DNA of 63,497 nucleotides, from the NCBI GenBank assembly GCA_004299705.1, contig SCQS01000020.1:1-63497 (forward strand). Reading direction: 5' to 3'. A program made the position numbers and the translations under genes. The DNA is from Rhodanobacteraceae bacterium. Its GTDB lineage: Bacteria; Pseudomonadota; Gammaproteobacteria; Xanthomonadales; Rhodanobacteraceae. The notes under the pieces are model-generated. The model made no database searches and was not told the DNA's origin. It worked only from the letters and a program-made list of their open reading frames with translations. This document shows positions 24,643 to 37,119 of this stretch, piece after piece. Every line of letters starts with the position of its first letter. Within the stretch, counting starts at the first letter, position 1.

Positions 24643-25190
24643 TCCAAGCCATCGACAAGTCGATGCACAACCCGGTTCCGATCGGGAAGGTCGACGACAT
24701 CCTGCGCCCCGAGGCCGACAACCCGATCATGCAGCGCGGGTTCGGCGTCACCACGGTGGACGCGCTGTTCAACTGGGCGCGCACCGGTTCGATGTGGCCG
24801 ATGACCTTCGGACTGGCCTGCTGCGCGGTGGAAATGATGCACGCGGGCGCCGCGCGCCTGGACCTCGACCGCTACGGCGTGATCTTTCGCCCGTCGCCGC
24901 GCCAGTCCGACGTGATGATCGTGGCCGGCACGCTGGTCAACAAGATGGCGCCGGCGCTGCGCAAGGTCTACGACCAGATGCCCGAACCCAAGTGGGTGAT
25001 CTCGATGGGTTCGTGCGCCAACGGCGGCGGCTATTACCACTATTCGTATTCGGTGGTGCGTGGCTGCGATCGCATCGTGCCGGTGGATGTTTACGTGCCG
25101 GGTTGTCCGCCGACCGCCGAGGCGCTGATTTACGGGATTCTGCAATTGCAGAAGAAGATCCGCCGCACCAACACGATCGTCAATCGTTAG
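24633..25190 (+). CDS. nuoB: NADH:quinone oxidoreductase subunit B
   Basis: Peripheral-arm subunit holding the terminal [4Fe-4S] cluster N2 that reduces ubiquinone. The 185-residue protein has the adjacent Cys pair in [13 protein letters not shown], the third Cys in [22 protein letters not shown] and the fourth in [16 protein letters not shown]. It overlaps nuoA by 10 nt. The stop codon TAG (25188-25190) abuts the 265-bp structured repeat that separates it from nuoC. Confidence 0.97.
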
Positions 25191-25455
25191 GGTCTGTTCG
25201 CCGTGCGCCAAGTGACCGCGCCGTCGGCCCTTGGCCTGCAGGGCAAGGAAGAGTGAGGAAGATGTATGTCGATACATAGACGAACGATGACGCCGCCATG
25301 CGGGCCAAGGGCCCCGGCCCGAAGGGTTGCTCCGCAGCGGCCGCCATACGGCGGTGCGCGCCTTGACCATAGTCCCGCTATGGCGCTGCGGCGCGCGCCT
25401 TGTCTGGCGGCCGCTGCGGAGCAACGCGGTTCATTTGGCGCACGGTGAACAGACC
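25191..25455 (+). repeat. 265-bp structured repeat, copy 1 (nuoB-nuoC junction)
   Basis: Fills the whole gap between the nuoB stop and a point 4 nt before the nuoC ATG. It has three nested stems. The outer arms 25191-25211 and 25435-25455 give 21 pairs, one of them G-U in RNA. Stem 2 is 25226-25236 with 25303-25313 (11 pairs). Stem 3 is 25326-25346 with 25405-25425 (21 perfect pairs) and encloses a CCATAG/CTATGG hairpin. The loop of stem 2 holds ATGTAT/ATACAT (25262-25277). A second copy at 33546-33811 keeps all three stems by compensatory changes. No transposase-like frame is present, and I see no target-site duplication. Confidence 0.9.
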
Positions 25456-27464: not shown

Positions 27465-27475
27465 AAACCGGGGTG

Positions 27476-27561
27476 AAAACCGGGGTCAGAGTGCACTTTC
27501 GTGCACAGAACCCCGCCGCCCGTCGTGATGTCCTACGAAAGTGCACTCTGACCCCGGTTTT
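27476..27561. repeat. Perfect 27-bp inverted repeat between nuoD and nuoE
   Basis: Arms 27476-27502 and 27535-27561 are exact inverse complements over 27 bp around a 32-nt loop; the core is GGGGTCAGAGTGCACTTT. A partial extra unit (GAAAACCGGGGT) precedes the left arm. From memory, this core resembles a REP family seen at many loci in Xanthomonadaceae. Confidence 0.85.
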
Positions 27562-27582
27562 CCTTCCCGCAGGGGGGCAGCC

Positions 27583-33050: not shown

Positions 33051-33542
33051 ATGAAACGAGTGATTGAATATCTCAAGAGCTTGATGCTGCTGGAACTTGC
33101 GGCGGGGTTGTGGTTGACCCTGAAGTACCTGTTCAAGCCGAAGTACACCGTGCGATTTCCGATGGAAACCATCCCGCGTTCGGTACGCTTCCGCGGCCTG
33201 CACGCGCTGCGCCGCTATCCGAACGGCGAGGAACGCTGCATCGCGTGCAAGCTGTGCGAGGCGGTGTGCCCGGCGCTGGCGATCACCATCGATTCGGCGC
33301 CGCGCGCCTCGGACGGCCAGCGCCGCACCACGCGCTATGACATCGACCTGTTCAAGTGCATCTATTGCGGCTTCTGCGAGGAGAGCTGCCCGGTCGATTC
33401 GATCGTGCTGACCGACATCCTGGAATACCACTTCGAGCGCCGTGGCGAGAACGTGGTGACCAAACCGCAACTGCTGGCGATCGGCGACCGCTTCGAGAAA
33501 TCCATCGCCGCCAATCGTGCGGTCGACGCGGCCTACAGGTGA
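33051..33542 (+). CDS. nuoI: NADH:quinone oxidoreductase subunit I
   Basis: Peripheral subunit with two [4Fe-4S] clusters (N6a, N6b) of the 8Fe ferredoxin type; 163 residues. The cluster motifs are [16 protein letters not shown] and [16 protein letters not shown]. An amphipathic N-terminal helix ([20 protein letters not shown]) anchors it to the membrane arm. [22 protein letters not shown] is a family block. Its stop (33540-33542) lies 3 nt before the second copy of the structured repeat. Confidence 0.97.
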
Positions 33543-33545
33543 TGG

Positions 33546-33811
33546 GGTCTGCCAACGCCCGCCCACGTGGCCGCGCCGTCGGCCATTTGCCCGCAGGGCA
33601 AGGAAGAACGAGAGAAATGTATGTCAATACATGAACGAGTGATGACGCAGCCATGGGGGCAAATGGCCCCGGCCCGAAGGGTTGCCCCGCAGCGGCTACC
33701 ATACGGCGGTGCGCGCCTTGACCATAGGCCCGCTATGGCACTGCGGCGCGCGCCTTGTCTGGTAGCCGCTGCGGGAGCAACGCGGCTCGCGTGGGCGGGC
33801 GTTGGCAGACC
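33546..33811 (+). repeat. 266-bp structured repeat, copy 2 (nuoI-nuoJ junction)
   Basis: Second copy of the element at 25191-25455. The outer arms 33546-33567 and 33790-33811 are perfect 22-bp inverses, but apart from the first six bases (GGTCTG) their sequence differs from copy 1. Stem 2 is 33581-33592 with 33657-33668 (12 pairs) and again differs from copy 1 while pairing fully. Stem 3 is 33681-33701 with 33760-33781, one bulged base, with two base pairs swapped together relative to copy 1. The ATGTAT/ATACAT hairpin sits at the same offset (71 nt). The element ends 3 nt before the nuoJ ATG. Confidence 0.9.
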
Positions 33812-34853: not shown

Positions 34854-36866
34854 GTGATCAGCCAGAATCTCTTGATCGTACTGGCCGGCGCCCCGCTGGT
34901 GGGCGCGTTGATCGCGGGCCTGCTGCGCAACCAGGTCGGCCGCGCGGGCGCGGCCGGCATCGCGATCGTGTCGGTGGCGCTGTCGTTCGCGCTGTCGTGC
35001 ATCGTCTTCTACCAGCTGGTGTGGGGCGGGGCGCCGGTATTCAACCACGACGTCTACACCTGGCTGCAGGTGGGCAAGCTGACCATCGGCATCGGTTTCC
35101 TGGTCGACCGCCTGACCGCCTTGATGCTGGTGGTGGTGACCTTCGTGTCGCTGATGGTGCACATCTACACCATCGGCTACATGCGCGAAGACCCGGGCTT
35201 CCAGCGTTTCTTTTCCTACATCGCGTTGTTCACGTTCTCGATGCTGGTGCTGGTGCTGGCCAACAACTTCCTGCAGTTGTTCGTGGGCTGGGAGCTGGTG
35301 GGCCTGGTGTCGTACCTGCTGATCGGCTTCTGGTTCGAGAAGCCCAGCGCCAGCTTCGCCGCGCTCAAGGCCTTCATCGTCAACCGCGTGGGCGACTTTG
35401 GCTTCATCCTCGGCATCGCCTGCGTGCTGTACGCCTTCCACACGCTGGATTACTCGGCCGTGTTCGCGCAGGCGCCGTCACTGGCAGGTCGAACCATCAC
35501 GGTGGTCGGCGGACACCCGTGGTCGCTGGCCACGCTGATCTGCCTGCTGCTGTTCGTGGGTGCCTGCGGCAAGTCGGCGCAGGTGCCGTTGCACGTGTGG
35601 CTGCCCGATTCGATGGAAGGCCCGACCCCGATCTCGGCCTTGATCCACGCGGCGACCATGGTCACGGCCGGCGTGTTCATGGTAGCGCGCATGTCGCCAC
35701 TGTTCGAGATGTCGCAGACCGCGCTGTCGGTGGTGTTGATCGTGGGCGCGACCACCGCGTTCTTCATGGGCCTGGTCGGCATCGTGCAGAACGACATCAA
35801 GCGCGTGATCGCGTACTCGACGATCTCGCAGTTGGGTTACATGGTCACGGCACTGGGCGCGTCGGCCTACGCGGCTGGCATCTTCCACCTGATGACCCAC
35901 GCATTCTTCAAGGCGCTGCTGTTCCTGGGCTCGGGCTCGGTGATCATGGCCATGCACCACGGCCAGGACATGCGCTACATGGGCGGCCTGCGCAAGCGCA
36001 TGCCGATCACCTACCTGACAATGTGGGCGGGCTCGCTGGCCTTGTGCGCGGCGCCGGGTTTCTCGGGATTCTTCTCGAAGGACCAGATCATCGACGCGGT
36101 GGGCGAGTCGCAGATTTTCGGCCACACCTACGCGTACTGGTGTGTGCTGCTGGGCGTGTTCGTGACCGCGCTGTACACGTTCCGGATGCTGTACATGACC
36201 TTCCACGGCAAGCCGCGCTGGCGCGTCGAGCACAGTCATGGTGACGACCACGGCGGGCACCATGAGCAGCCCGGCGTATTGCCGCACGAACCGAAGGAAC
36301 AGTCGTTCGTGGTGACGTTCCCGCTGGTGATGCTGGCGATTCCATCGATCATGATCGGCTGGGTCACGGTCAAGCCGCTGCTGTTCGGCGACTGGTTCCA
36401 GGGCGCCATCAAGGTGCTGCCGGCCCACGACGTGCTGGCGAAGATGGCCGAGGAGTTCCACGGCACCGTGCCGATGTTCTGGCACGCGTTCGTGACACCG
36501 GCGTTCTGGATCGCCTTCGCCGGATTCGCGGTCGCGACCTACGTGTACCAGTTCAACCCCAAGGTCGCCGACCGCGCGGCGCGGATGTTCCTGCCGATCT
36601 TCAAGATCCTCACCCGCAAGTTCTGGATCGACGAGGTCTACTACAACCTGTTCGCGCGCGGCGGGGTGAGGCTCGGGCGCGTGTTCTGGAAGGGCGGCGA
36701 TGCCGGCCTGATCGAGGGCACGGTCAACGGTTCCGCGTTCGTGGCCGAGCGCAGCTCGCGCGTGTTCCGTCGCCTGCAAACCGGCTTCCTGTACCACTAC
36801 GCATTCGCGATGATCGTCGGGTTGATCCTGCTGTTGGGCGGCCTCTGGTATTGGGGGCTGAGATGA
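34854..36866 (+). CDS. nuoL: NADH:quinone oxidoreductase subunit L (GTG start)
   Basis: Distal antiporter-like proton-pumping subunit, 670 residues, about 16 transmembrane helices with the long lateral helix near the C-terminus. Blocks: VGWELVGLVSYLLIGFWFEKP (TM5 Glu), VPLHVWLPDSMEGPTPISALIHAATMVTAGVFMVARM with the broken TM7 and lysine/histidine line, and MTHAFFKALLFLGSGSVI. The start is GTG at 34854 with GAGGTG upstream. A His-rich cytoplasmic loop HSHGDDHGGHHEQ (about 460) is notable. The gap to nuoM is a 253-nt palindromic composite. Confidence 0.97.
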   Translation: MISQNLLIVLAGAPLVGALIAGLLRNQVGRAGAAGIAIVSVALSFALSCIVFYQLVWGGAPVFNHDVYTWLQVGKLTIGIGFLVDRLTALMLVVVTFVSLMVHIYTIGYMREDPGFQRFFSYIALFTFSMLVLVLANNFLQLFVGWELVGLVSYLLIGFWFEKPSASFAALKAFIVNRVGDFGFILGIACVLYAFHTLDYSAVFAQAPSLAGRTITVVGGHPWSLATLICLLLFVGACGKSAQVPLHVWLPDSMEGPTPISALIHAATMVTAGVFMVARMSPLFEMSQTALSVVLIVGATTAFFMGLVGIVQNDIKRVIAYSTISQLGYMVTALGASAYAAGIFHLMTHAFFKALLFLGSGSVIMAMHHGQDMRYMGGLRKRMPITYLTMWAGSLALCAAPGFSGFFSKDQIIDAVGESQIFGHTYAYWCVLLGVFVTALYTFRMLYMTFHGKPRWRVEHSHGDDHGGHHEQPGVLPHEPKEQSFVVTFPLVMLAIPSIMIGWVTVKPLLFGDWFQGAIKVLPAHDVLAKMAEEFHGTVPMFWHAFVTPAFWIAFAGFAVATYVYQFNPKVADRAARMFLPIFKILTRKFWIDEVYYNLFARGGVRLGRVFWKGGDAGLIEGTVNGSAFVAERSSRVFRRLQTGFLYHYAFAMIVGLILLLGGLWYWGLR

Positions 36867-36883
36867 GCATCGTGAAGAGCGGT

Positions 36884-37100
36884 ACCGGGGACCGGGGACC
36901 GGGGGCCGGCAAAGCCGCGCCAGCGATTACCCCCTTCCAAAGGAAGGGGGTCGCCGCGCAGCGGCGGGGGGATGATGAAACCCGGAGCCACAGCCATCCC
37001 CCTCGATCCCCCTTCCTTCGGAAGGGGGAAGGCGGCCGGAAAGCCCTGGCGCGTGCTGCGCGCGGATCCTGCTCTTGGTCCCCGGTCCCCGGTCCCCGGT
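36884..37100. repeat. Composite inverted repeat between nuoL and nuoM
   Basis: Outer arms are three GGGGACC-type units: 36884-36904 is the exact inverse of 37080-37100 (21 bp). Inside are two near-identical hairpins of opposite orientation: ACCCCCTTCC/GGAAGGGGGT (36929-36951) and TCCCCCTTCC/GGAAGGGGGA (37007-37029). Between these GGGGGATG and CATCCCCC can also pair, so the inner part is an inverted REP doublet. No gene is seen. Confidence 0.85.
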
Positions 37101-37119
37101 CCCGTTTCAAGGAACACGC

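Follow-up and report, generated by a model that had tools for sequence, protein, structure and literature searches.

Why do two junctions of the nuo operon in a Rhodanobacteraceae bacterium carry long paired structures whose arms differ between the copies and still match? We addressed this in the window, the whole 63,497-nucleotide stretch of DNA that was analysed, and in related genomes. The earlier note had described two elements of 265 and 266 nt with three long stems, and the coordinates, lengths and all three quoted stems are present in the sequence. Copy 1 (265 nt, 25191..25455; this and every other feature of the two copies lies on the + strand) sits between nuoB and nuoC, with its left edge abutting the nuoB stop codon TAG (25188-25190) and its right edge 4 nt upstream of the nuoC ATG (25460). 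Copy 2 (266 nt, 33546..33811) sits between nuoI and nuoJ, beginning 3 nt past the nuoI stop codon TGA (33540-33542), and 3 nt separate its right end from the nuoJ ATG (33815); the flanking genes were assigned through NCBIfam.

Both copies share one layout, in which an outer stem (P1) is followed by a left hairpin (P2), a linker hairpin and a right hairpin (P3). The left arm of P1 in copy 1 (25191..25219), comprising a left terminal inverted repeat and an inner extension, pairs with the right arm and right terminal inverted repeat (25426..25455), with 21 positions paired including one G-U, and copy 2 forms 22 perfect pairs between 33546..33567 and 33790..33811 (23 including a flanking G/C). P2 consists of a 5' arm (25220..25244 in copy 1), a purine-rich core with a small tip hairpin (25244..25294) and a 3' arm (25295..25318), and its stem reads GGCCCTTGGCC/GGCCAAGGGCC in copy 1 and GGCCATTTGCCC/GGGCAAATGGCC in copy 2 (33581..33592 and 33658..33669). 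Within the core of copy 1, the purine-rich strand CAAGGAAGARYGAGGAAG stands opposite GACGARYGATGACGC, single pairs are interrupted by G-A/A-G steps, and the hairpin TGTAT-GTCG-ATACA (25262-25277) closes the structure. Across relatives (34 and 42 sequences) this core combines many invariant columns with covarying R-Y pairs, an invariance to be read in the light of many of those sequences having been picked through a pattern in the same core. The linker hairpin CCC-GAA-GGG (25319..25325) has a three-base loop that differs among relatives. P3 begins with GTTG in its 5' arm (25326..25346), carries its own tip, a covarying hairpin CCATAG-(loop)-CTATGG (25348..25385), and ends with CAAC in its 3' arm (25405..25425); the corresponding arms of copy 2 are 33682..33702 and 33760..33781, and two pairs are exchanged together between the copies (CCGCCA/TGGCGG versus CTACCA/TGGTAG). 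We saw no promoter- or terminator-like site in copy 1, and a role as a simple terminator is therefore unsupported.

The pairing of these arms is constrained. The RNA folding energies of copies 1 and 2 lie 16.1 and 14.7 standard deviations below those of dinucleotide shuffles, none of 200 being as low, and the opposite strand of copy 1 folds too (z -12.0). An alignment of 42 of the 45 reference copies from several genera (the longer L203, L325 and L352 omitted) shows 77 of 97 pairs altered on both sides and a standard pair in 96.1% of cells, as against 75.9% (sd 0.4) after shuffling. Constraint follows from changes on both sides of a pair, which number 810 cells compared with 212 (sd 13) in shuffled alignments, with none of 500 shuffles as high, and from a control in which the structure was slid by 1-3 columns and only 30.4-39.4% of cells paired. 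The covariation that the earlier note had seen between two copies thus extends to all long stems in a wide alignment, and its view that the element is no simple decayed insertion stands.

The element belongs to a dispersed, multi-copy family with full copies of about 260-300 nt and no evident coding content. Its own genome holds 7 strong matches, and DNA similarity finds it in 22 of 61 genomes (its own included), all of the same family. We also built a covariance model (R1) for the P2 domain from 34 hand-picked sequences and searched this order with it, scoring at most 12 candidates per genome; at E <= 1e-4 the core was matched in 73 of the 299 genomes sampled, spread over 33 of 86 genera. Scanning genome contigs for a P2-core pattern gave 111 stretches, and the 80 of these that were listed fall in Dyella, Rhodanobacter, Pseudoxanthomonas, Lysobacter, Luteimonas, or metagenome-assembled genomes labelled Lysobacterales, Lysobacteraceae, Rhodanobacteraceae or Proteobacteria. 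Weaker model matches occur in other families of the order (L377-L396, from G108, G124, G059, G053 and G051; E about 1e-6 to 1e-15). The earlier note knew no named family with this layout, and a covariance-model search of Rfam 15 likewise brought no family to its gathering threshold for the element; the best scores below threshold were Xoo5 (16.8 bits with 50 needed), which we rejected as a homologue, and MIR8788 (23.3 with 124 needed). No description of the element turned up in the full-text literature searched, a collection mostly outside which subscription papers fall, and we describe a new MITE-type family. Several features that mark a MITE can be seen: short, non-coding copies of about 260-300 nt at many loci, terminal inverted repeats resembling those of three of four IS5-family elements (16-17 of 20 bases, each matching a P1 subfamily), and CTAG on both sides of 19 of 20 copies in one burst, together with empty nuo junctions in relatives and a TA duplication that the flanks suggest.

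The two nuo copies are recent insertions, present in this species and in none of the congeners examined: the nuoB|nuoC junction is short and empty in 15 of 15 of them and the nuoI|nuoJ junction in 14 of 14. A role specific to nuo mRNA is accordingly not supported, given both these empty junctions and the same element at many other loci. In a complete genome, G019, with 24 model matches (21 with E of 1e-20 or better), 20 fetched copies form a burst of near-identical elements, each 263 nt between CTAG flanks. The left flank is CTAG in 20 of 20 and the right in 19 of 20, the exception (L360) reading CTAA. Calling frames by codon usage on 300-nt flanks, we found that the best-scoring flanking reading frame stops exactly at the element in 17 of 19 well-bounded copies (L376 left out), so that the TAG of CTAG is the stop codon of the flanking gene. 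Other genera show flanks such as TTAG..CTAA and TTAG..CTAG, which would fit a YTAR target in which TA, and not all four bases, is duplicated; IS5 duplicates PyTAPu, most often CTAG, according to a passage in PMC5493358. Some Dyella-type copies have matching three-base flanks (e.g., TTA..TTA or TGA..TGA), and the duplication may therefore differ between subfamilies.

Sequence resemblance at the ends points to the probable mover. One end of an insertion sequence in G121, GAACGTGTTCAAAGTCTCGC, matches Dyella copies of the element (GAGCCTGTTCAAAGTCTCCC) at 17 of 20 bases and its other end at 16 of 20; an IS of Dyella tabacisoli (GGGCGTGTTAACACTATAGG) likewise matches Pseudoxanthomonas copies (GGGCCTGTTAACGCTATTGG) at 17 of 20, its two ends reaching 17 and 16 of 20 against copies of other genomes. 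An IS5-type remnant in G019, found through PF13340, matches the burst of its own genome at 16 of 20 on the right and 13 of 20 on the left, where both ends are taken to belong to one element. Controls in which the end was shuffled beyond base 7 averaged 10.7-13.2 with maxima of 14-17; only the best ends of two IS beat every control (17 versus 15), the 16 of the G019 remnant equals the control maximum, and a multi-copy IS of G032, several copies of which also sit at CTAG, does not beat its own. The IS transposases combine PF13340 with a DDE domain, and all six transposase pieces have NF033580 (IS5 family) as their best NCBIfam match, three above the cut-off and three below it. Since G121 has no model match of the element and the Dyella tabacisoli copies seen carry another P1 type than the one its IS end resembles, these two IS are cognate to copies of other species, not to copies in their own genome. 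A search with PF13340, which occurs in 4 of 16 genomes, gave no transposase with P1-matching ends in this genome, G013, G266 or G304, each with several to many copies. Among the matches listed for Pseudoxanthomonas wuyuanensis, eight end pairs span 263-298 nt and five ends are single, with no long autonomous element with the same ends within 1.5 kb around the five; end matches in G019 (at most 3 mismatches) included no intact long pair. None of the IS sequences inspected showed the P2/P3 interior, and the element itself carries no transposase. Among other candidate movers, RAYT was rejected: PF01797 (Y1/RAYT), although 11 of the 16 genomes searched have it, is absent from G013, G266 and G304, each with at least 11 copies.

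For the outer stem the best reading is a pair of terminal inverted repeats from an IS5-type transposon, and we consider it probable that the nuo elements are recent insertions of a non-autonomous MITE-type element that spread with IS5-family transposases and whose inner hairpins are kept paired by selection. If P1 consists of transposon ends, its apparent covariation would arise from the need of both ends to suit a single transposase, different subfamilies having followed different transposases.

Mismatches within the stems distinguish between double-stranded ends and folded single strands. Under strand-symmetric mutation, G-U and A-C mismatches should be equally frequent; an excess of G-U indicates that the written strand folds, and an excess of A-C that its complement does. 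We aligned arms with both mismatch types scored alike, dropped 11 duplicate records and all but one copy of the G019 burst, and left poorly aligned arms uncounted; the cells are not phylogenetically independent, and relatedness of copies remains in the counts. P1 is neutral (G-U:A-C 48:47 in 112 elements), consistent with double-stranded transposon ends, whereas P2 leans to G-U (99:22 in 105 elements) and P3 to A-C (25:163 in 106 elements). By position, P3 has A-C ahead at 16 of the 19 that could be decided (p 0.004) and a ratio of 19:70 once the three most loaded positions are removed; P2 has G-U ahead at 12 of the 17 decided (p 0.14), its bias lying mostly in three positions and falling to 30:19 without them (p 0.15). 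Counting unique local contexts gave 50:47 for P1, 44:11 for P2 (p 9e-6; 64 elements only) and 22:83 for P3 (p 2e-9). A first subset showed the same directions in the window's genus (P2 17:6, P3 9:37) and in pooled other genera (P2 48:13, P3 13:38), while a fixed-column alignment, whose structure came from a program that accepts G-U as a pair, gave 51:17 for P2 and only 27:41 for P3, with columns split 11:12. An opposite strand bias of P2 and P3 is therefore likely, and firmer for P3 than for P2. In our reading, selection would act on each hairpin in the strand that runs inward from the end to which it belongs, P2 as + and P3 as -. The earlier note had argued for selection on a folded RNA or cruciform DNA, and this view divides: the inner hairpins behave like folded single strands, on opposite strands, and the outer stem, on balance, appears to be a transposon end in double-stranded form. 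More generally, comparing G-U with A-C mismatches offers a means of telling double-stranded ends from single-stranded hairpins by sequence alone.

The same opposite bias might arise if P2 and P3 were recognised as single-stranded DNA hairpins during transposition, one per strand, in the manner of REPINs or IS200/IS605. G-T pairs are tolerated in DNA hairpins too, and the absence of a bias over all stems in copies that have stayed in place (below) would suit such recognition. We nevertheless consider it unlikely, as the termini, the targeting of CTAG and the TA-type flanks point to a DDE transposase and away from HUH enzymes, and the copy-rich G013, G266 and G304 lack Y1/RAYT genes. P2 and P3 also look unlike in sequence, whereas a REPIN consists of two inverted REPs.

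Somewhat less likely still is a regulatory role in place, with a folded RNA of the riboswitch or leader type acting and being selected within nuo and other mRNAs. This reading draws on copies at one locus in different species, identified as orthologous from their flanks. Three close pairs with well-defined bounds show differences of 4.2, 5.3 and 6.4% in the element, compared with 26-29% in the fastest codon phase of the flanking genes (L063/L068 and L070/L087 are 94 and 92% identical when aligned with margins), and some copies that stay in place thus appear to evolve slowly. Five looser orthologous pairs differ by 17-36% and are not slow relative to whole flanks. Of the changes within the stems of six close comparisons (two sharing a copy), 37 break a pair from one side, 25 alter one side but leave it paired, and only 6 are compensated. 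The ratio of G-U to A-C among in-place changes is 8:1 in P2, which would suit a selected RNA, but 10:11 in P3, 3:0 in P1 and 19:20 over all stems. Given this mismatch mix and the pairs that are not slow, we dropped low in-place divergence as proof of a local function. Because in-place changes are mostly one-sided and few are compensated, most of the covariation seems to have arisen in the moving lineage and not in nuo mRNA.

Start codons near the ends bear on the regulatory reading in both directions. Among the first 56 copies (43 from the window's genus and 13 from others), 34 have a start codon (GTG and TTG included) at most 10 nt from the right end and 7 have one that close to the left end. 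When ATG starts within 22 nt were counted in 154 of the 165 copies collected, 31 of 43 copies of the window's genus had one at the right end and 1 of 43 at the left, compared with 9 of 91 (right) and 30 of 91 (left) in other genera and 0 of 20 at either end in the young G019 burst. Older copies are thus enriched beside start codons, which speaks for a regulatory RNA, but the orientation is opposite in the two groups, and no congener examined has the nuo insertions. The lineage-specific orientation might reflect selective retention of copies next to start codons. Bridging of a Shine-Dalgarno signal by the stem was rejected as a general rule, the joined flanks of 34 copies showing no general signal over shuffled flanks; at nuoJ, AGGTGA stands ahead of the element and the same motif occurs in several empty congeners, which is suggestive of such bridging there.

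Comparably improbable is the idea that mutation itself maintains the pairing, through template switching in replication or conversion between arms that rewrites one arm from the other. The earlier note had named inversion within a copy as a possible source of matching arms, and inversion does occur: L437 (G019 contig 1, 1001234-1001381), a 148-nt derivative, has an inverted P2 tip and has lost P3. P3 has also collapsed to short near-perfect hairpins in L199, L154 and L350, and the strand neutrality of P1 mismatches would be expected on this account as well. Mutational rewriting, however, predicts neither the opposite strand bias of P2 and P3 nor loops conserved over the order, and two-sided changes are few among in-place orthologs (6 paired versus 62 one-sided). 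Finally, an IS630/Tc1-mariner transposase would suit the CTAG target and TA-type flanks (a passage in PMC2170065 has ISY100 duplicating TA and cites a title on IS630 and CTAG), but we regard IS630 as a very improbable mover, since PF13358 occurs in only 2 of 16 genomes, with one match in this genome and none in the burst genome G019, and P1-like ends were found on IS5-family elements instead.

Under the reading that we prefer, a MITE-type element moved by IS5-family enzymes, the transposase would recognise P1 as double-stranded ends, insert the element at CTAG and duplicate TA. In GC-rich genomes CTAG seems to occur mostly at TAG stop codons, so that insertion would leave the gene intact, often in an operon junction. 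Selection in the moving lineage would keep P2 and P3 paired, and copies would so accumulate different but matching arms. A transcript that passes the stop codon into either end would meet a hairpin at once, and for nuo the prediction is that read-through RNA adopts the complete fold in the gap between two genes. The most likely rationale for the inner hairpins, one that we would still expect to fail more often than hold, lies in RNA: the hairpin at the entry may insulate, protect or process the mRNA, making the insertion tolerable. Service to transcripts from either side would explain why constraint falls on the inward-read strand. We tentatively propose a bidirectional selfish RNA shield, in which the hairpin at each end would be selected in the transcript that enters there and the mRNA of the gene hit would gain a structured 3' extension. 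If this proposal were true, an IS5-type passenger could establish itself in essential operons, nuo among them, with little cost, which raises the concrete question of how passenger elements stay harmless in operons.

Several known repeats resemble the element in part. The Correia/NEMIS elements of Neisseria, as portrayed in sections of PMC10969869 and PMC2229807, are likewise small MITEs with terminal repeats and TA at their ends, dispersed near genes and giving folding transcripts; those sections describe RNase III cleavage of some Correia/NEMIS transcripts at the terminal repeats and changes in mRNA stability by ERIC and Correia elements through RNase E or RNase III. By description, the element here stands apart from Correia/NEMIS in its three long stems, conserved two-hairpin interior, opposite strand bias and hosts. 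RUP of S. pneumoniae, an IS630-driven MITE, was also assigned its mover through matching ends and TA targets (in the part of PMC2229807 devoted to it), but our element has IS5-family ends and a conserved internal structure. The CIR repeats of Caulobacter and Brucella share the form of two long inverted repeats as two arms with a linker and TA ends; compared by description, they differ in hosts, and the account of CIR within PMC2229807 gives their mobility mechanism as unsettled. REPINs, too, comprise two inverted hairpin units, are dispersed and are thought to need a protein in trans (a passage of PMC3116915), whereas they are RAYT-associated, PF01797 is absent from three genomes rich in our element, and its two units differ. 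There is also a likeness to IS5-family IS (NF033580, PF13340), whose terminal repeats resemble P1 subfamilies and several of whose G032 copies sit at CTAG; its lack of a transposase and its P2/P3 interior set our element apart from the IS sequences inspected.

The element described here is non-coding and abundant within one bacterial order; we found no name for it, and it accounts for hairpins in a core operon. The findings also counsel caution, as stem covariation among paralogous repeats can stem from transposon ends and selection in a moving lineage, not from a local regulatory RNA.

Variants of the element were seen as well. Short forms (L199, L154, L220, L350 and L283) have P3 collapsed into a short hairpin or consist of P1 alone. 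A small nested hairpin module, CCCCGGATCAAGTCCGGGGCAGGC, occurs at varying sites within copies of different genera, namely between P1 and P2 (L063, L078, L079, L087, L091 and L093), in the linker hairpin (L165) and in the P3 tip (L340). A divergent hairpin element at CTAG (L436, G019 contig 1, near 4196765) has another P2 loop and the same CCCnnnGGGTTG..CAACGC layout, which suggests a wider superfamily. The nuo operon itself holds further repeats: the nuoD-nuoE junction (27475-27562) carries a second, different one, an inverted repeat whose 28-bp arms (GAAAACCGGGGTCAGAGTGCACTTTCGT and the complement) match perfectly across a 32-nt spacer, and at 36880-37104, downstream of a frame ending at 36866, GGGGACCGGGGACC repeats stand opposite their complement with CCCCCTTCC..GGAAGGGGG inverted repeats in between, a third kind of repeat within the operon.
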